Shown here in pieces: positions 43,890-52,252 of a stretch of DNA of 64,000 nucleotides. Origin of the DNA: Prosthecobacter vanneervenii (GTDB lineage: Bacteria > Verrucomicrobiota > Verrucomicrobiia > Verrucomicrobiales > Verrucomicrobiaceae); NCBI RefSeq assembly GCF_014203095.1, contig NZ_JACHIG010000013.1:62001-126000 (forward strand), written 5' to 3'. The position numbers and the translations under genes were made by a program. Position 1 is the first letter of the stretch; each line of letters starts with the position of its first letter. The notes beneath the pieces were generated by a model. It did no database searches. It saw only the letters and a list, made by a program, of their open reading frames with translations, and was not told the origin of the DNA.

Positions 43890-44549
43890 TCAGACCAGGC
43901 GGTCCTTCAAAGCCCGCGCCACTGCGGCGGCTCGGCTGTGGACATCGAGCTTGGTAAAGAGATTGCGGGTGTGGGTGCTGGTGGTGTGAATGCTCACCTG
44001 CATGCGCTCGGAGATCTCCTTGGCCGTGAGGCCCTCCACCAGGAGCTTGAGCAGAGCGTGTTCACGTGGTGAAAGGGAGACGGGTTGGGAGGCGGGCTGG
44101 GTGAGTTTGGCGAGCATTTTGACCACGCTGGCGGCGACCTTGGGAGACATTGGCGAGCCGCCGTGGGCGGCCTCATGGATGGAGGCAACAATGGTCTCCG
44201 CAGGGGAGGTCTTGATGAGATAGCCACTGGCTCCTGCGCCGATGGCATGGCCGATTTTCTCCTCGTCTTCAAAGACGGTGAGAATGACGATGCGGCAGTC
44301 TGGAGCGAGCCTGTGCACATCGCCAATGATTTCAAGGCCGCTGCGCCCAGGCAGACCGACATCCAGCAGCAGGACATCCGGCTTCTGCGAGTCTGCGGCG
44401 GCTTTAAGGACGGCGAGCATGGTTTCGGCGTTGGCGAATGCGGGAGCGGCGGCGAGGCCACGCTCTGGGGTGCAGAGGCGCTGCAGGGAGCGGCGGAAGG
44501 TATCGTGATCCTCGACGATCCAGGTCTGGATAAGCGGCTCTGGTTTCAT
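43890..44549 (-). CDS. NarL-family response regulator
   Basis: 219 residues. Receiver domain with I-V-E-D-H-D-T-F at the start, phospho-acceptor D63 in L-L-L-D-V-G-L-P-G and K in Y-L-I-K-T-S; C-terminal LuxR-type helix-turn-helix (L-S-P-R-E-H-A-L-L-K-L, T-A-K-E-I-S-E-R-M-Q-V-S, T-T-S-T-H-T-R-N-L). It overlaps the sensor kinase gene by four bases (ATGA) as a cognate pair. Candidate targets are the divergent amidase operon beyond the kinase gene or the SGNH pair; no binding site is recognisable. Confidence 0.93.
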   Translation of the reverse strand: MKPEPLIQTWIVEDHDTFRRSLQRLCTPERGLAAAPAFANAETMLAVLKAAADSQKPDVLLLDVGLPGRSGLEIIGDVHRLAPDCRIVILTVFEDEEKIGHAIGAGASGYLIKTSPAETIVASIHEAAHGGSPMSPKVAASVVKMLAKLTQPASQPVSLSPREHALLKLLVEGLTAKEISERMQVSIHTTSTHTRNLFTKLDVHSRAAAVARALKDRLV

Positions 44550-46612
44550 AAGGCAGGCGGAGAAAGCTCCCTGGCGGTGGCTCGTACCCAGCGATGAGTG
44601 AGGGGCAGATCCAGCACGATGAGTGTGCCGTGGCCGGGTGTGGAGGTGAGGTCAAAAGCGGCGTGCATGGCTGCGGCGCGCTCACGCAGATTTCCAAGGC
44701 CATGACCGCTGAATGTGGCCGAAGTATTAAAGCCTGCACCGTTGTCTTGAATCTCGATGCGCAGACCGTGGGTGCCGGGGATGAGATGGAACCGCACATG
44801 AGTGGCACCAGCGTGCTTGGAGATATTGTTGAGCACCTCCTTGCAGAAGAGATAAATCTCACGCCGGGTCTCAATGTCTGGCTCCATTGTCAGAGGTGAA
44901 GCCGGAAGAGCACAGTCAAGCCGGATGCCGCGCAGCAGGCGCTCGGTGAGGCGTTGAAGCACATCCACCCAGTCGTCCTGCGATGCTGCCTTGCGGCGTG
45001 TGCTGATGAGATCAACCATGTCCCGCATCGAGTCCGCAGTTCCTGCCGCCACCCGCTCGATTTCTGTGAGCTCCGATTTGAGAGATTCCAGCGTGGCATC
45101 TGGCTGATTGGCCATGGAACAGATGAGTGTGATGCTGGCGAGGTTTGAGCCGATCTCGTCGTGGAGATCGCGGGCGATTTTGTCGTGCAGACGCTGGGTG
45201 TCGCGTTTGCGCTGGAGCTGCTGTTTCCAAAGCAGGCCGCCAGCAATGAGGATGATGAAGCAGACGCTGCCAAGGCTGCCATAGACGAGCTGCCGCTGGG
45301 CATGCTCGGCCAGAGCCGTGCGTCGCGACTGAAGCTGTTTGTTTTCGACTTCGAGAGTCTGGCGAGTTTCGAGCTGCGAGAACCATTCTGGCAGGCTGAT
45401 AAGCCGGCCGTCTGCGGTGAGGCCATCATTGAGGGCGTCCAGCCCCCAGCCGACGGCGTCTTCGCCCATGAGAGTGTCGCTCGAAGTGAAGCTGCCCTGA
45501 GGAGCGATGTTTTCCTGTCCGTGGAAGACCTGCATCTCAGCAAGCGCAAAGGCATAGTCATTTTTGCGATACCAGAGCTCCTTGGTGGTGATGCGGATGA
45601 ATTTAGCCCGGGTGTGGCGGGCTGGAATGCAAACAAAGTTCATACCAGGGGAGGGCTGGAATTCATCGGTGACGTCCAGAAGAGTGACGGCATCGCTGAA
45701 ATCTTCCTTGGTGGCCGTTTCCACGGTATAGAGCTTGGGGAAGCCATAGTCATACCATAGAGGCACTTCCTTGAGATGTACCGGAACGAGGCGGACTTCA
45801 TCAATCGTGGTGATTTCGGGCAGGGTGAGAGTGAGCCACTTCTTTTCCGACTTGGTGCTGGTCGGCGTGCTGTGGAATCCTTTTTTACCGCCTGGCCCGG
45901 GCTGAATGGGAAGGCCGAGCGGTGTGACCATGTCATTGAGATTGGCGCGCATCCATGCTCGTGGAGCGTTGCGGCTGCTGGAGCTGGAGACAGTGGCGTC
46001 GATGGCCAGATTGCGCGAGCCTGAAAGCACCAGCATTTCGGCAAGGGCGAGAACTTCAGGGCCGTCGATGGACCAGGGCTCGATGGCAGTGAGGCGCACT
46101 CGCCTGACCTGACGTGGAGCAAACCGGGCGATGACAGGCTGGCAGCCGGGATTGGGAAAATCCTGCGAGGTATGATCCAGCACGACATGCGCCGCGCCAG
46201 CATCATCAAAGACCTCCAGCCTAAAACGAACGGGGAAGCCATAGCCTGCCACCACGGCTTTGGCCGCCTTGGCCAAAGGAGGGACAAGGATAACGGCGTC
46301 CACTGGTGCAGCTTCACGGAGGGTGATCTCCATCCAGCGGACATCCTCTTCGGTGCTGTAGCCAGTTTTCAGTCCGACGCGAATGCAGCTGTTGATCAGT
46401 GCAATTTCCGGCAACGCCTGCAATCGCTGCGTGTGGTCCAGGATGGATGCGTCAAGCGTTTGGAGATCTCCCCAAGACCAAAAGGCGAGGCGCTCAGCCC
46501 AGTGCGACTCTGCCGCAGTGGTGGAGTGGGCATGTAAAAGCCAGGTGATCAGCAGTGCTGAAAAGAAGTGCAGCCTGGGTGCGCACACACGAATGCGCGA
46601 CGCCTTGGTCAT
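44546..46612 (-). CDS. sensor histidine kinase with two discoidin-like extracytoplasmic domains
   Basis: 688 residues. A signal peptide or N-terminal anchor (about 15-30) is followed by two F5/8 type C (discoidin-like) beta domains (about 85-197 and 205-365), whose closing strands R-R-V-R-L-T-A-I and K-F-I-R-I-T-T-K are alike. A coiled region and membrane helix (about 442-462) lead to a HisKA_3 helix with R-D-L-H-D-E-I-G (H484) and a HATPase_c domain (N-N-I-S-K-H-A, D-N-G-A-G, G-H-G-L-G-N-L). It probably senses a carbohydrate or glycoprotein outside the cell and phosphorylates the overlapping NarL regulator. I start at the ATG at 46612, where the signal peptide begins; the frame is open 96 bases further upstream. 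Confidence 0.88.
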   Translation of the reverse strand: MTKASRIRVCAPRLHFFSALLITWLLHAHSTTAAESHWAERLAFWSWGDLQTLDASILDHTQRLQALPEIALINSCIRVGLKTGYSTEEDVRWMEITLREAAPVDAVILVPPLAKAAKAVVAGYGFPVRFRLEVFDDAGAAHVVLDHTSQDFPNPGCQPVIARFAPRQVRRVRLTAIEPWSIDGPEVLALAEMLVLSGSRNLAIDATVSSSSSRNAPRAWMRANLNDMVTPLGLPIQPGPGGKKGFHSTPTSTKSEKKWLTLTLPEITTIDEVRLVPVHLKEVPLWYDYGFPKLYTVETATKEDFSDAVTLLDVTDEFQPSPGMNFVCIPARHTRAKFIRITTKELWYRKNDYAFALAEMQVFHGQENIAPQGSFTSSDTLMGEDAVGWGLDALNDGLTADGRLISLPEWFSQLETRQTLEVENKQLQSRRTALAEHAQRQLVYGSLGSVCFIILIAGGLLWKQQLQRKRDTQRLHDKIARDLHDEIGSNLASITLICSMANQPDATLESLKSELTEIERVAAGTADSMRDMVDLISTRRKAASQDDWVDVLQRLTERLLRGIRLDCALPASPLTMEPDIETRREIYLFCKEVLNNISKHAGATHVRFHLIPGTHGLRIEIQDNGAGFNTSATFSGHGLGNLRERAAAMHAAFDLTSTPGHGTLIVLDLPLTHRWVRATARELSPPAL

Positions 46613-46778
46613 GGGATAGATCGTGATGGAAGGCGCCTGCTTCATCGGTGCCAGAATTTTCCATGATGTCTGGATTTCTTCATTCAGCATTTTGTCATCG
46701 GAACTCACCTATTTTGGTGAGCTGACGGAAGCGGTAGCCGGTGCAGAGTCAAGATGTCAAAACCACTCATCCTTGATC

Positions 46779-47627
46779 ATGAATTCGCGTCTTTCACTTC
46801 TTCTCGCCTTCAGTCTGATGAACTGCACCGTCCTTGCCCAGCAGGAGGAGGAAGAGACATCGAAAAAGAAGTTTGTCATCCCCGCAGATGTGAATGGGAT
46901 GAAAACGATCTTTTCGGCTCCCGAAAATGTGCGGGCACTCAAGGTGGGTATTTACTTCGGTCCGGGAGCGCCGGCGTCGGGGGTGGAAAATGTGACGAAC
47001 GTGCTGAAGCCATTCAGCCAGATCAGCGTGGTGAGACTGAGCGGAGAGGAAATAGGCACGCAGAATCTCGGCGTGTATGATGTGCTGGTCTTTCCTGGCG
47101 GCAGCGGTTCCAGCCAGGCGAAGGGAATCGGGGAAGCAGGGGCCAAGAATGTGCGGGAATTTGTCCGCAATGGTGGAGGCTATGTGGGCATCTGCGCAGG
47201 GGCGTATCTGGCGTGCTCGAATTTTTCCTGGGGCCTGGGTGTTTTGAATGCAGGAACCGTTTCACCCAAATGGCGAAGGGGGCAGGCTTTTCTGGACCTT
47301 GAAACGACATCTGAAGCCACCGAAGTGCTAGGTGAGGCGAAGGGAGTTTTCAAGGTGCGGTACAACAACGGACCTATCCTCAAACCCTGGACGCGCACGG
47401 ACCTGCCTTCCTACCAAACGCTGAGTGTCTTCCGCTCTGAAGTGGCGAAGTATGGGGCTCCTGAAGGCGTGCAGGTAAACTCCCCGGCGCAGGTCATCGC
47501 TCCCTTCGGCAAAGGACGTGTGTTTGTATCCAGTCCGCACCCAGAAAACACACCTGGGCTGGAAAACCTGATCCCGCGCGGCATCATCTGGGCTGCAGGC
47601 CCTAAAGCGAAGGAGGTGCTGCCTTGA
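46779..47627 (+). CDS. secreted BPL_N-like class I glutamine amidotransferase fold protein
   Basis: 282 residues with a signal peptide (M-N-S-R-L-S-L-L-L-A-F-S-L, V-L-A-Q). The fold resembles the N-terminal domain of fungal biotin-protein ligase (BPL_N): V-L-V-F-P-G-G-S-G-S, the nucleophile elbow G-Y-V-G-I-C-A-G-A-Y with C139, and H254-P-E256 near the end complete an apparent Cys-His-Glu triad. Secreted amidotransferase-like enzymes of this type are uncharacterised; peptide or amide hydrolysis is inferred. The ATG at 46779 begins the signal peptide. Its stop overlaps the NlpC/P60 gene start, so it heads a coupled operon divergent from the sensor kinase gene, 166 bases apart. Confidence 0.85.
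   Translation: MNSRLSLLLAFSLMNCTVLAQQEEEETSKKKFVIPADVNGMKTIFSAPENVRALKVGIYFGPGAPASGVENVTNVLKPFSQISVVRLSGEEIGTQNLGVYDVLVFPGGSGSSQAKGIGEAGAKNVREFVRNGGGYVGICAGAYLACSNFSWGLGVLNAGTVSPKWRRGQAFLDLETTSEATEVLGEAKGVFKVRYNNGPILKPWTRTDLPSYQTLSVFRSEVAKYGAPEGVQVNSPAQVIAPFGKGRVFVSSPHPENTPGLENLIPRGIIWAAGPKAKEVLP
47611..47617 (+). promoter_or_regulatory. ribosome binding site fixing the TTG start of the NlpC/P60 gene
   Basis: AGGAGGT, a near-perfect anti-Shine-Dalgarno complement, ends six bases before TTG at 47624. No ATG or GTG lies in frame close by that would give a complete signal peptide, so TTG is taken as the start. Translation is coupled to the upstream gene, whose TGA overlaps it as TTGA. Confidence 0.8.
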
Positions 47628-48454
47628 TCATTCGCGTGATTGCATTGATCTGCAGCCTGGCTGGCATCACGCAGGCTCAGAATACCTACACGTCTCCTTA
47701 CACCGTCAAATTTTCCTTCAAGGAAGAGGATTTGATCGGAGATCTTCTGAAGGGCCCGCGTGCAGATTCGAAAGAGTACGCCAGTGTGCCTTTTCAGGAA
47801 TGGTATAATCCGGCCAACCAGACCCGCTGGACTTACCGCGGGCCTCCAGCGAAGCATTTCAATCCACCTGCCGGACTGAGCAACAAGAGCCCCCAGTGGT
47901 CCCGCGAGCGTGTGATAGCCGCTGGCATGAGATACATTGGATACAGCTACCAGCACCATCATGTGCCGGAGTGGGATCCTCCTGCAGAATGGCCGCGAGA
48001 TTCGGAACAAAAGACTCCAGCTGGCAAAGGGCTGGATTGCAGCAACTTCACCGCGTTTGCTTACAACCTAGCTTTGGGCATCAAGCCGACAGGAGACATT
48101 CGTGATCAGTCTGAGATGACTGAAGTGAAGGGGCCCGGCCCAGGCCGGATCATACCTGTCACGCGTATTGAGCTGCCAACCAAGCATGAGGATTTTGAGA
48201 AAGAGCTGCTCTCGGGAGATCTGCTCTACATAAAAAACACCAAAGGTGTGCTGTCCCATGTGGTGCTGTGGGTGGGCAGTATCGGGCGCTCACCTGACGG
48301 GATGCCGCTGATTCTTGACAGCACTGGCAGCGGTAATTACGACGCCAAAGGCAGTGAGATACCAGACGGCATCCAGCTGCGCGCGTTCACGCCGCGTTCC
48401 TGGTATTTTCGTCAGGCCAGTCATGTGCTGCGCATCATTCCGAAGGGCAAGTGA
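47624..48454 (+). CDS. secreted NlpC/P60-like cysteine peptidase
   Basis: 276 residues, signal peptide (I-I-R-V-I-A-L-I-C-S-L-A, T-Q-A-Q). After about 85 residues of unique sequence the NlpC/P60 core begins: A-A-G-M-R-Y-I-G-Y, G-L-D-C-S-N-F-T-A-F with catalytic C139, S-G-D-L-L-Y-I and S-H-V-V-L-W-V with H212. NlpC/P60 enzymes usually cleave gamma-D-glutamyl-diaminopimelate bonds in peptidoglycan or related N-acyl amides. The substrate-binding region is longer than in typical endopeptidases, so it may act on free peptides or amide-linked lipids. It is the middle gene of the operon. Confidence 0.85.
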   Translation: MIIRVIALICSLAGITQAQNTYTSPYTVKFSFKEEDLIGDLLKGPRADSKEYASVPFQEWYNPANQTRWTYRGPPAKHFNPPAGLSNKSPQWSRERVIAAGMRYIGYSYQHHHVPEWDPPAEWPRDSEQKTPAGKGLDCSNFTAFAYNLALGIKPTGDIRDQSEMTEVKGPGPGRIIPVTRIELPTKHEDFEKELLSGDLLYIKNTKGVLSHVVLWVGSIGRSPDGMPLILDSTGSGNYDAKGSEIPDGIQLRAFTPRSWYFRQASHVLRIIPKGK

Positions 48455-49419
48455 CTCGCATGAATCACCTATCAGCCATCCTTTTAACCTTCACTTGCGG
48501 ACTGGGTTTTGCGGGCGAGCCGACACCGGGAAGTCATGTGTATGGTCTGCGTGATTTCATCGAATATATTCCAGGTGATCTTCCGCTGGTGGTCGCAGCG
48601 CCACATGGAGGGCACTTGACGCCGAATGATCTGCCCGACCGAAAGAGTGGTGAGACGAGCGCCGACGCCAACACGCAGGATCTGGCGCGGCAGATCGCAA
48701 ATGTGATTCACGAGCAGACAGGACATCACATTCACCTTGTCATCTGCCGTCTGCACCGAAGGAAACTCGATGTGAATCGTGAGATCATGGAGGCTGCGCA
48801 GGGGGACAAAGAGGCAGAGCTGGCATGGAAGGAGCACCATGGATTTATCGAACAAGCGTGTGCAAGCGCTGTGAAAAGATTTGGCGTGGCTTTTCTCATT
48901 GATCTGCACGGCCACGGCCACCCCGTTCCCCACGTGGAACTGGGATGCCTGCAGAATGTGCAGCAACTGGCAAAAAGCGATGAAGCACTGAATGAGAAGG
49001 AATGCATTGAGGGCAGCAGTCTGCGCTGGATTGTTGAACATGGAACTCACAGCCATGCAAAGCTGTTGCGTGGACCGATGAGTTTTGGAGCGATATTGGA
49101 AAGCAACGGCTTTGCCGCCACTCCGAGCCTGAGCATGCCGGTGCCAACGCAGCCGTTTTTCCGAGGTGGCTACACCATCTCAAGGCACTGCAGGAGTGAA
49201 CGTAACGTCACGGGACTCCAGATTGAGACGAATCGTCCGCGTCTGCGAGATACTGCGGCAAACCGCCTGAAATTTGCACAGGCCCTGTTTGCGACCCTTG
49301 AGAGTTATCTTCCCGTCCATATCGGCCTTGGGATCGACGGAATGAAAACCACGCTGGCGAAGCATCATTCCGAGGCCGGTCTTGAACAGACGAAAACTTC
49401 CGACCAAGCCCCCCCATAG
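48451..49419 (+). CDS. secreted N-formylglutamate amidohydrolase-like protein
   Basis: 322 residues. Motifs V-A-A-P-H-G-G-H-L-T-P, D-V-N-R-E-I-M and L-I-D-L-H-G-H-G-H-P are those of the N-formylglutamate amidohydrolase (FGase) family, a zinc hydrolase related to carboxypeptidases. The N-terminus is a signal peptide (L-S-A-I-L-L-T-F-T-C), whereas typical FGases of histidine catabolism are cytoplasmic. GTG at 48451 is preferred because it overlaps the previous stop (GTGA) and supplies the basic residue the signal needs; the ATG at 48460 is the alternative. Third gene of the operon. Release of N-acyl groups from glutamate or glutamyl peptides is a reasonable inference. Confidence 0.82.
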   Translation: MTRMNHLSAILLTFTCGLGFAGEPTPGSHVYGLRDFIEYIPGDLPLVVAAPHGGHLTPNDLPDRKSGETSADANTQDLARQIANVIHEQTGHHIHLVICRLHRRKLDVNREIMEAAQGDKEAELAWKEHHGFIEQACASAVKRFGVAFLIDLHGHGHPVPHVELGCLQNVQQLAKSDEALNEKECIEGSSLRWIVEHGTHSHAKLLRGPMSFGAILESNGFAATPSLSMPVPTQPFFRGGYTISRHCRSERNVTGLQIETNRPRLRDTAANRLKFAQALFATLESYLPVHIGLGIDGMKTTLAKHHSEAGLEQTKTSDQAPP

Positions 49420-49480: not shown

Positions 49481-52156
49481 ATGAAAAAAAACCCACGTTT
49501 AGAATACGGCAAACTCCACCTTTTGATCTCACCGCTGCTTGCAGCAGCATGTCTGGCCCAGACGCCAGTTTCCGCCCAGAGCACTTTCACCACGGCATCC
49601 GGCAACCAGTCATGGGGCACGGCTTCGAACTGGTCTCCATCAGGGGTGCCCAATGCCGTGGGAGCTTCCGTGATTTTCAACACCCCCTCCGGAGGGAATC
49701 AAGCCATCAACAGCTTTGGAGCAGTGCGTACTGTGGGTTACATGACCATCAACAACGATTCTGCCAATACATTTTCGATCACCACTACAAACACCCTGAC
49801 CTTTGACGCCACCTCTGGCAATGCGGCGCTGACGGTGGCAGGATCAGGAGACAATCTGAGCACTTTTGCATCGAGTCTTAGCGTTGTTTTAAATGATTCC
49901 CTGGACCTGTCTGTGACCAATACGGCGAGCTCCGCTGCGGACGGAGCTCTGAAAATCAGCGGGGCTATTTCCGGAGCGGGACGTATCATCAAAACAGGCG
50001 CAGGCATCATGACTCTAGCCAGCTCGTCCAACACCTTTACCGGAGGTGTGTCCATTCTAGGCGGAACTGTGCGCATTTCGGCAGGGGCTGCGCTCGGAGC
50101 CGCACCGGCCAGTTACGTGCCGGACCAGATCATCATCAATGGAGGCACGCTAGAATATACCGGTAGCGGGGTCACCTCTGCATCGAATCGGGGTTTTGCT
50201 CTGGGAAGCAGCACCGGAACGATCAGCGTGACGGGCACGGGCTCCTACCAGATCGCCGGAATTGTTTCGGATGTTACTGGGCAGTCGGGCGCGCTGCGCA
50301 AGACGGGGTCTGGAACGCTTTACATCAATCCAGGCAGCGCCAATACGTATTCCGGCGGTACCACCATCGTATCTGGCACTCTTCAGATTGGGATTGCAGG
50401 CAGCTTGGGTACTGGGACTGTCAACCTGGGCAGCACCGGCGGGGGAAATGCCACTCTTGAGAACACCCTCGGAGGTTACACGTTTTCAAACAACATCAAT
50501 GTCATCTCTGGCAGCGGGGGCGTGCTGACCTTGTATTATTCTGGGGCGGCCGCTTTCAACAGCACTTTCAGCGGAGCCATCAGCATGGGGGACAATCTGG
50601 TCATTCGCAGCGATGCGATCAGCGGTCAGGCCATGCGAATCACGGGAGCTGTTTCAGGTGCGGGTAGCATCACCAAGACCGGCACAGGAGTTCTGAGGCT
50701 GGAAAACAACAATGCATCTTACACGGGGATCACCACCATTTCAGCTGGGACCTTGCAGATAGGCAACGGCAGCACGACAGGGGGAATCGGCACGGGTGCG
50801 ATTGTCAACAACAGCAGCCTTGTGGTCAATCGCAGCAATTCGCTGACCCTGAACAATGACATGAGCGGGACGGGAGCATTGGTGCAGGCTGGAACTGGCA
50901 CAACCACCATCAACAACACCAACACCTATTCCGGAGGCACTGTGGTCGCCAAGGGGACTTTGCAGTTCGGGCGCACATCATCCCTCGGCAGCGGAGCCGT
51001 GACTCTCGGCAGTGTCGGAGGAGGAGATGCCACCATGGAAAACTATCTGGCAGGCTGGATCACCAGCAATGACATCAGCACCGTGTCAGGAAGCGGTGGC
51101 ACCTTGACGCTTTCGTACACCAGCAGTGTGACAGGGTTTGGCAGTTCGGTCTTCTCGGGAGCGCTGACGTTAAACGACAGCATTGTCATTCGCAGCGAGG
51201 CCGCTACGGGACTGGCCATGCGCATGCAGGGTGCCATCAGCGGTTCAGGTGGGATTACCAAAACCGGGGCGGGCGTGGTCCGCCTGGAAAACAACAACGA
51301 TGGTTATTCTGGGACCACGACCATCTCTGCCGGCACGCTGCAGGTGGGAAATAATGGCAGCACAGGCGGTCTGGGATCCGGCAACGTGGTGGACAACAGC
51401 GCGCTCCTCATCACGCGATCCAACAGCTACACTCTGGCCAATCAGATCAGCGGCACGGGCACGCTGACTCATTCAGGTTCCGGCATCACAACCCTGAGCA
51501 ATGCCAACACCTATAGTGGTGGCACAAATGTTACTGCAGGTTCATTGCTGGTGACCAACACGACAGGCTCGGCGACTGGCACCGGCGGCGTGATTACTTC
51601 TCCAGGCACCGCTTTGGGCGGGAAAGGGACAATTGCGTCCACAGGCTCCAACAGCGTCGTCATCGGAGGAGCCGTGTCACCTGGGGTTCCGGGAGAAAAT
51701 TCCGGGGTGGGAACACTGACATTCACACCTGTGGATGGAACGCTTTCGTTTCAGAGTGGAAGCGCGGTGGTATTTGAGCTTCTGGCCAGCGGCAGCAATG
51801 ACAAGATCGTCTTCAATGCCACTGGCGCAGGAGTGATGGATTTTTCGGCCATGGGTGCGGGCGGTCTCATCGTTTCGTTTTCTGCCGGTTATATTCCGCA
51901 GCCGGGCCATTCCTTCGATCTGATTGACTGGGCGGCGGTCTCTGGCACTGGGATCAGCGGCCTGACTGAGTCGCTGCTCAACCTGAGCACTGCCGGCTTT
52001 GATCCCTCCTGGCGCTGGGACACATCATTGTTCAGCACAAGCGGGGTGATTTCGGTTGTTGCCACTGTGCCAGAGCCTTCGCTGGGGTTGATGCTGATGG
52101 CAGGTCTCATGGCGCTGGCGCTCAGGCGTAAACGGCTGAGGTGCGTATTTGAGTGA
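49481..52156 (+). CDS. autotransporter-associated beta-strand repeat protein with PEP-CTERM-like tail
   Basis: 891 residues with a signal peptide (about 1-32, V-S-A-Q). The body is Gly/Ser/Thr/Asn-rich beta helix with the autotransporter-associated repeat (G-x-G-x-L-x-K-T-G-x-G-x-L-x-L, N-T-Y-S-G-G-T). It contains two tandem units of about 195 residues (roughly bases 50281-50868 and 50869-51456) and the start of a third. The C-terminus V-P-E-P-S, a hydrophobic helix and R-R-K-R match a PEP-CTERM sorting tail, so an exosortase would anchor or release it; no autotransporter barrel is present. Surface adhesin or extracellular matrix component is likely. It is not obviously cotranscribed with neighbours. 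Confidence 0.88.
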   Translation: MKKNPRLEYGKLHLLISPLLAAACLAQTPVSAQSTFTTASGNQSWGTASNWSPSGVPNAVGASVIFNTPSGGNQAINSFGAVRTVGYMTINNDSANTFSITTTNTLTFDATSGNAALTVAGSGDNLSTFASSLSVVLNDSLDLSVTNTASSAADGALKISGAISGAGRIIKTGAGIMTLASSSNTFTGGVSILGGTVRISAGAALGAAPASYVPDQIIINGGTLEYTGSGVTSASNRGFALGSSTGTISVTGTGSYQIAGIVSDVTGQSGALRKTGSGTLYINPGSANTYSGGTTIVSGTLQIGIAGSLGTGTVNLGSTGGGNATLENTLGGYTFSNNINVISGSGGVLTLYYSGAAAFNSTFSGAISMGDNLVIRSDAISGQAMRITGAVSGAGSITKTGTGVLRLENNNASYTGITTISAGTLQIGNGSTTGGIGTGAIVNNSSLVVNRSNSLTLNNDMSGTGALVQAGTGTTTINNTNTYSGGTVVAKGTLQFGRTSSLGSGAVTLGSVGGGDATMENYLAGWITSNDISTVSGSGGTLTLSYTSSVTGFGSSVFSGALTLNDSIVIRSEAATGLAMRMQGAISGSGGITKTGAGVVRLENNNDGYSGTTTISAGTLQVGNNGSTGGLGSGNVVDNSALLITRSNSYTLANQISGTGTLTHSGSGITTLSNANTYSGGTNVTAGSLLVTNTTGSATGTGGVITSPGTALGGKGTIASTGSNSVVIGGAVSPGVPGENSGVGTLTFTPVDGTLSFQSGSAVVFELLASGSNDKIVFNATGAGVMDFSAMGAGGLIVSFSAGYIPQPGHSFDLIDWAAVSGTGISGLTESLLNLSTAGFDPSWRWDTSLFSTSGVISVVATVPEPSLGLMLMAGLMALALRRKRLRCVFE

Positions 52157-52252
52157 ATATCTGCGGCTCTATGCTCAGCAAAATAAGTGAATCATACACA
52201 TTGGACTTTTGGCACGAAAACCGCATGTGTTCCTCAGCCTCCCCAAGAATGT

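Follow-up and report, generated by a model that had tools for sequence, protein, structure and literature searches.

A modular operon of predicted exported amide hydrolases with a linked two-component system in Verrucomicrobiota

What do three overlapping genes for predicted exported hydrolases of different families do together, and do they form a fixed pathway? The genes lie on the forward strand of a 64,000-nucleotide stretch of Prosthecobacter vanneervenii DNA (the window): gene A (46779..47627) encodes a BPL_N-type class-I-GATase-like hydrolase, gene B (47624..48454) an NlpC/P60 peptidase and gene C (48451..49419) an FGase-like zinc hydrolase. Assignments used Pfam and homologue alignments, with a signal-peptide heuristic for all three and structure models for B and C. 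An ORF check found the end-to-start overlaps described in a first-pass annotation: A and B share the 4 nt TTGA, with TTG as the start codon of B, and B and C share the 4 nt GTGA, with GTG as the start codon of C. An in-frame ATG at 48460 follows the GTG at 48451, and we are unsure of the exact start of C. Export of all three products, claimed in the same annotation, agreed with a heuristic scan, by whose judgement A, B and C each have a signal-peptide-like N-terminus, in which an n/h-region is hydrophobic and cleavage by signal peptidase I is plausible. No peptidoglycan-binding domain was found in A, B or C.

Homologues of the trio differed by dN of 0.23–0.43 against dS above 1.3 or saturated; dN/dS was ~0.15–0.2 for A and B where dS was computable, and synonymous sites in C were saturated. 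Downstream of the operon lies a PATR-repeat, PEP-CTERM autotransporter-like protein (49481-52156), which is kept only in close relatives. We rejected it as a fourth operon member, as members of its protein cluster occur only in the window, G100, G017 and G123. A PEPCK-like ORF, assigned by reading the sequence, lies beyond it at 52187.

The families proposed in the first-pass annotation all scored above their Pfam cut-offs, and the catalytic residues that it had named in A and B were present and invariant among homologues; invariance here and below refers to homologues down to ~35–40% identity. A matched BPL_N (PF09825; 2.9e-18, 66.2 bits versus a cut-off of 24.2) and carries a GxCxG nucleophile, C139, and an S-P-H-P-E motif with H254 and E256. 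This Cys-His-Glu triad was intact, with all three residues invariant in 19/19 homologues. A thus shares the GxCxG and HPE triad and the BPL_N match with BPL_N and class-I GATase-like proteins, but is predicted to be secreted and stands alone, without a biotin ligase or synthetase domain. We know of no function for secreted BPL_N proteins. That A acts specifically on glutamate-linked substrates was not supported, as the Pfam scan gave no C26 gamma-glutamyl hydrolase match. A PDB profile search with A gave only a weak match to PdxT. In distant Verrucomicrobiota with up to 7–8 A matches per genome, we observed tandem double A (BPL_N-like) domains in exported proteins (L208:4971-7283 and L209:1027-3534).

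B matched NLPC_P60 (PF00877; 4.7e-6, 27.0 bits versus a cut-off of 23.0), and its C139, H212 and D232 were invariant in 22/22 homologues. Its structure model (pLDDT 92.4), a papain-like fold holding the catalytic Cys and His, gave 20 PDB matches at E<1e-3, all of them NlpC/P60 proteins and most of them murein hydrolases, with 3h41, a YkfC-like B. cereus protein, at the top. By sequence and fold, the nearest PDB relatives were murein peptidases: MepS/Spr, Acd24020, SagA and 3h41. B shares the catalytic fold and the DCS and SHV motifs with the NlpC/P60 gamma-D-Glu-diamino acid endopeptidases (YkfC-like 3h41, MepS/Spr, SagA), and MepS and SagA are secreted, as B is predicted to be. It differs from them in sequence (~12–18% identity in structure alignments), in a conserved extra N-terminal region of ~90 residues and a YQHHHxPDW insert, in lacking an SH3 or LysM domain and in having Asp as the third catalytic residue. 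No plasmid relatives of B were found. One B homologue (L211:5963-6779; G417:C410) is spread over several reading frames, and one of its pieces has a reported internal stop; it is a pseudogene or an assembly error.

The proposal that C resembles N-formylglutamate amidohydrolases held for family and fold and failed for the enzyme identity. C matched FGase (PF05013; 5.3e-10, 40.2 bits versus a cut-off of 28.9), and H52, D72, D107, N109-R110, H153 and E259 were invariant in 20/20 homologues; H52, D72, H153 and E259 are candidate metal or catalytic residues. FGase structures led the fold matches of its model (pLDDT 89.8; 2q7s at 4.6e-8, and 2odf), followed by the muramoyl-alanine amidase AmiB, YndL (gamma-PGA complex) and CwlD. 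The PH-G and DLH motifs align with those of HutG and FGase, but identity to 2q7s and 2odf was 12–17%, and C is predicted to be secreted. We rejected N-formylglutamate deformylase (HutG) on the equivalog score, which fell ~260 bits short (TIGR02017; 18 versus 278.75 bits), and no hut genes were identified in the neighbourhood examined. Outside HutG, the FGase family is, to our knowledge, largely uncharacterised. Two loci from another order (L202:5835-8540 and L203:5631-8309) encode, directly 3' of A, an FGase-like C with a C-terminal extension of ~550 residues containing repeat-like segments.

Degradation of gamma-polyglutamate or N-acyl-glutamates, alternatives raised in the first-pass annotation, would suit the FGase fold of C and its weaker matches to the gamma-PGA hydrolase YndL and to succinylglutamate desuccinylase. 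We consider it improbable, given the distance from HutG, the lack of specific PGA relatives for A and B, and the secreted calpain-like peptidase, C2, that takes the place of C in some relatives.

Comparison of loci showed a recurrent but modular arrangement. Among 142 genomes of the order, A was present in 54, C in 52 and B in 15 (16 copies), and all 16 B copies adjoined another exported hydrolase: A in eight cases, an M20 amidohydrolase in seven and C2 in one. The wider tally combined the order genomes with a GTDB scan and six-frame profile searches; relatives' genes were called by a simple codon score backed by such searches, and some genomes were fragmented MAGs. The adjacency A-B-C, whose conservation the first-pass annotation had proposed as a check, occurred in the same order in eight genomes (the window, G100, G017, G008, G114, G123, L098 and L105; in G123 the contig end cuts C), and most A-B loci had a 4-nt overlap. 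Because the adjacency is conserved in other genomes, it is not a matter of chance. That annotation would have given up its proposal had the trio not been conserved, had homologues lost catalytic residues or had structural matches pointed to non-hydrolytic relatives, and we saw none of these.

The stepwise trio that it envisaged fared less well. Four Verrucomicrobiaceae carried A-B-C2 (L100, L106, L107 (=G025) and L108), and no third member was recognised beside A-B in G103 and L103. L116 and L118, both grouping with a Chthoniobacteraceae row, had the reversed order B-A, and B was missing from A-C loci in G080 and G132. B-C2 was present in Brevifollis (L110) and C2-B in Trichlorobacter (L142). 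Beyond the order, in another family of the same class, A adjoined C in G290 and G393 and C2 in G205. In two separate orders, then, the third position is filled either by an FGase-like zinc hydrolase or by a calpain-like cysteine peptidase. At least one such exchange left the genomic slot unchanged: the calpain gene of L100 lies between B and a PEPCK gene (confirmed by Pfam), where the window has C, the PATR protein and the PEPCK-like ORF. In a tree of B, A-B-C loci were paraphyletic to A-B-C2 loci, implying more than one change of the third gene, and M20-linked copies formed one clade (100/100). This clade's arrangement also occurs in the genome of the window, where a second B paralogue (L088:9782-11936; G000:C6) adjoins a secreted M20 amidohydrolase at a locus kept in seven relatives; a protein with an LprI domain (lysozyme-inhibitor family) is encoded nearby. 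Since C is replaceable, the genes are unlikely to form a glutamate pathway of three fixed steps.

At the other extreme, A, B and C could each be useful on its own as a secreted hydrolase, clustered with the others but sharing no pathway with them, as each is also found alone or with other partners. This seems very improbable to us, because A-B, A-C and A-C2 adjacencies recur across orders, most A-B loci keep their overlaps, and the loci share a conserved regulatory site.

That site lies between A and a divergent gene pair. A sensor histidine kinase (HisKA_3/HATPase) with a discoidin-like (F5/8 type C) ectodomain is encoded at 44546..46708 on the reverse strand, with its true start probably near 46612, and is followed by, and kept together with, a NarL/LuxR-type response regulator (43890..44549, reverse strand); both were identified by Pfam and neighbourhood comparison. 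Most A-B loci have this pair, oriented divergently from A. Alignment and motif search revealed a palindrome, CTCACC-TATTTT-GGTGAG followed by TGAC (46704..46726, forward strand), 53 bp upstream of A. Between kinase and A, a near-invariant CTCACCTATTTTGGTGAG-N-TGAC stood out from otherwise poorly alignable intergenic DNA. It was present at 10/10 kinase-A loci found without the motif (the window, G100, G123, G103, G025, G017, G008, L100, L103 and L106); four further loci, found through the motif itself, were left out of this count as circular. Where A lacks the kinase, the palindrome was nearly absent (G140), and L108 had a variant. The exact palindrome occurs once in the genome, at the operon. 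One-mismatch matches in this genome equalled those of a reversed-pattern control, so no wider regulon can be inferred. From this distribution we infer a candidate site of the response regulator, and its own sensor probably turns the operon on. The first-pass annotation mentions neither the two-component pair nor the palindrome, nor does it note that the third gene is interchangeable or that A can be fused to an M14-type hydrolase.

In these fusions, which occur in the f2 and f3 families of the order, A forms the C-terminal half of an exported protein of ~500–570 aa, and the N-terminal half, with HGNE, DLNRNFP and DLHEG motifs, is an M14/AspA/M99-like zinc hydrolase (L077:1471-2988; L148, L149, L151-L153 and L156). 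The best Pfam match of this domain was AstE_AspA_cat, above cut-off in L077, L148, L151 and L156, and scores for Peptidase_M99 (PF17033) stayed below cut-off (23.5–25.4 versus 27 bits). A PDB search with the L077 fusion returned Csd4/Pgp1-type chains among its matches (4wcm and 4q6m, ~1e-6, and 4wck). The window differs in carrying a separate FGase-type gene in place of a fusion to a Csd4/Pgp1 (M99) or AspA/AstE domain. FGase and the Csd4/AspA-type zinc carboxypeptidases are members of a single zinc-hydrolase clan, which makes the fusion a counterpart of the A-C pair. Csd4 cleaves the gamma-D-Glu-mDAP bond of muramyl tripeptide (PMC4220969).

We favour, at a probability of roughly 0.42, a two-component-controlled operon whose exported amide hydrolases act in the periplasm or extracellularly, where they degrade stem peptides from peptidoglycan or gamma-glutamyl peptides much like them. 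B, as a thiol NlpC/P60 peptidase, would cut the gamma-D-Glu-diamino acid bond; A would hydrolyse a glutamyl-type amide through a Cys-His-Glu acyl-enzyme; and C, or C2 in its stead, would take off a terminal residue or acyl group. We infer which substrate is used, which bonds are cut, how the steps follow one another and that the regulator binds the motif. Murein is favoured because the nearest relatives of B, the fusion partner of A and occasional YkuD neighbours point to it. In Brevifollis (L110), B-C2 comes after the gene of a YkuD L,D-transpeptidase that also matches peptidoglycan-binding domains weakly, and YkuD likewise precedes distant relatives of B in M. gordonae. The fold neighbours AmiB and YndL of C and the linkage to the kinase-regulator pair and the palindrome count in favour of this reading too. 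The link to murein or glutamyl peptides suggested in the first-pass annotation thus survives through the gamma-D-Glu/DAP-type relatives of B and the Csd4/AspA-like domain fused to A, without the fixed pathway. Against murein, the trio lacks a peptidoglycan-binding domain, the M99 scores of the fusions stay under the Pfam cut-off, YkuD adjacency is rare, the Pfam matches of A carry no glutamate specificity, and the kinase ectodomain looks carbohydrate- or ligand-binding rather than murein-specific.

What speaks most strongly against murein is the calpain-like alternative, from a protein-peptidase family: exchange of C for C2 argues for a broader peptide substrate and fits general scavenging of extracellular peptides and proteins by environmentally induced secreted peptidases, with C and C2 interchangeable, M20 as another partner of B and peptidoglycan as at most one substrate. 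We regard scavenging as rather unlikely. C2 partners in L100, L106-L108, L110, L142 and L205, M20 partners in eight loci and the discoidin-like sensor ectodomain fit it, but the nearest solved relatives of B are all murein-type NlpC/P60 proteins, a Csd4/AspA-like domain is fused to A, and the A-B loci that we compared showed no recognisable gene for a transporter or for amino-acid catabolism. Alternatively, the two-component pair could sense the envelope and induce trimming enzymes that serve to remodel the wall of the cell itself, for shape, prostheca or the response to envelope stress, and not to feed the cell. A dedicated kinase-regulator pair with a motif found once in the genome, fusions resembling the shape-determining Csd4/Pgp1 and the YkuD neighbours would suit such a role, which we judge unlikely given that B is patchy (15/142 genomes of the order), odd for a core shape factor, and that we noticed no cytoskeletal or bactofilin genes nearby.

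Stem-peptide degradation remains our preferred reading of the window's operon. The component families are known. The literature searched gave no description of the trio, its control or BPL_N function, so that the modular operon seems not to have been described; as most subscription papers lay outside this search, their silence is weak evidence of novelty. Novelty lies in how the modules are combined and regulated, and in a lead on secreted BPL_N proteins. Tentatively, at somewhat below even odds, these loci represent an extracellular amidase system of Verrucomicrobiota that is inducible, modular and previously undescribed, with A as its core, NlpC/P60, FGase-like, calpain-like or fused M14 enzymes as plug-ins, and dedicated two-component control through the palindrome. 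If so, secreted BPL_N proteins would gain their first assigned function. Verrucomicrobiota wall biology has long been debated, and the conserved operon, the fusions and the apparent cognate two-component system with its defined DNA site offer testable handles on how these bacteria may digest or remodel wall peptides.
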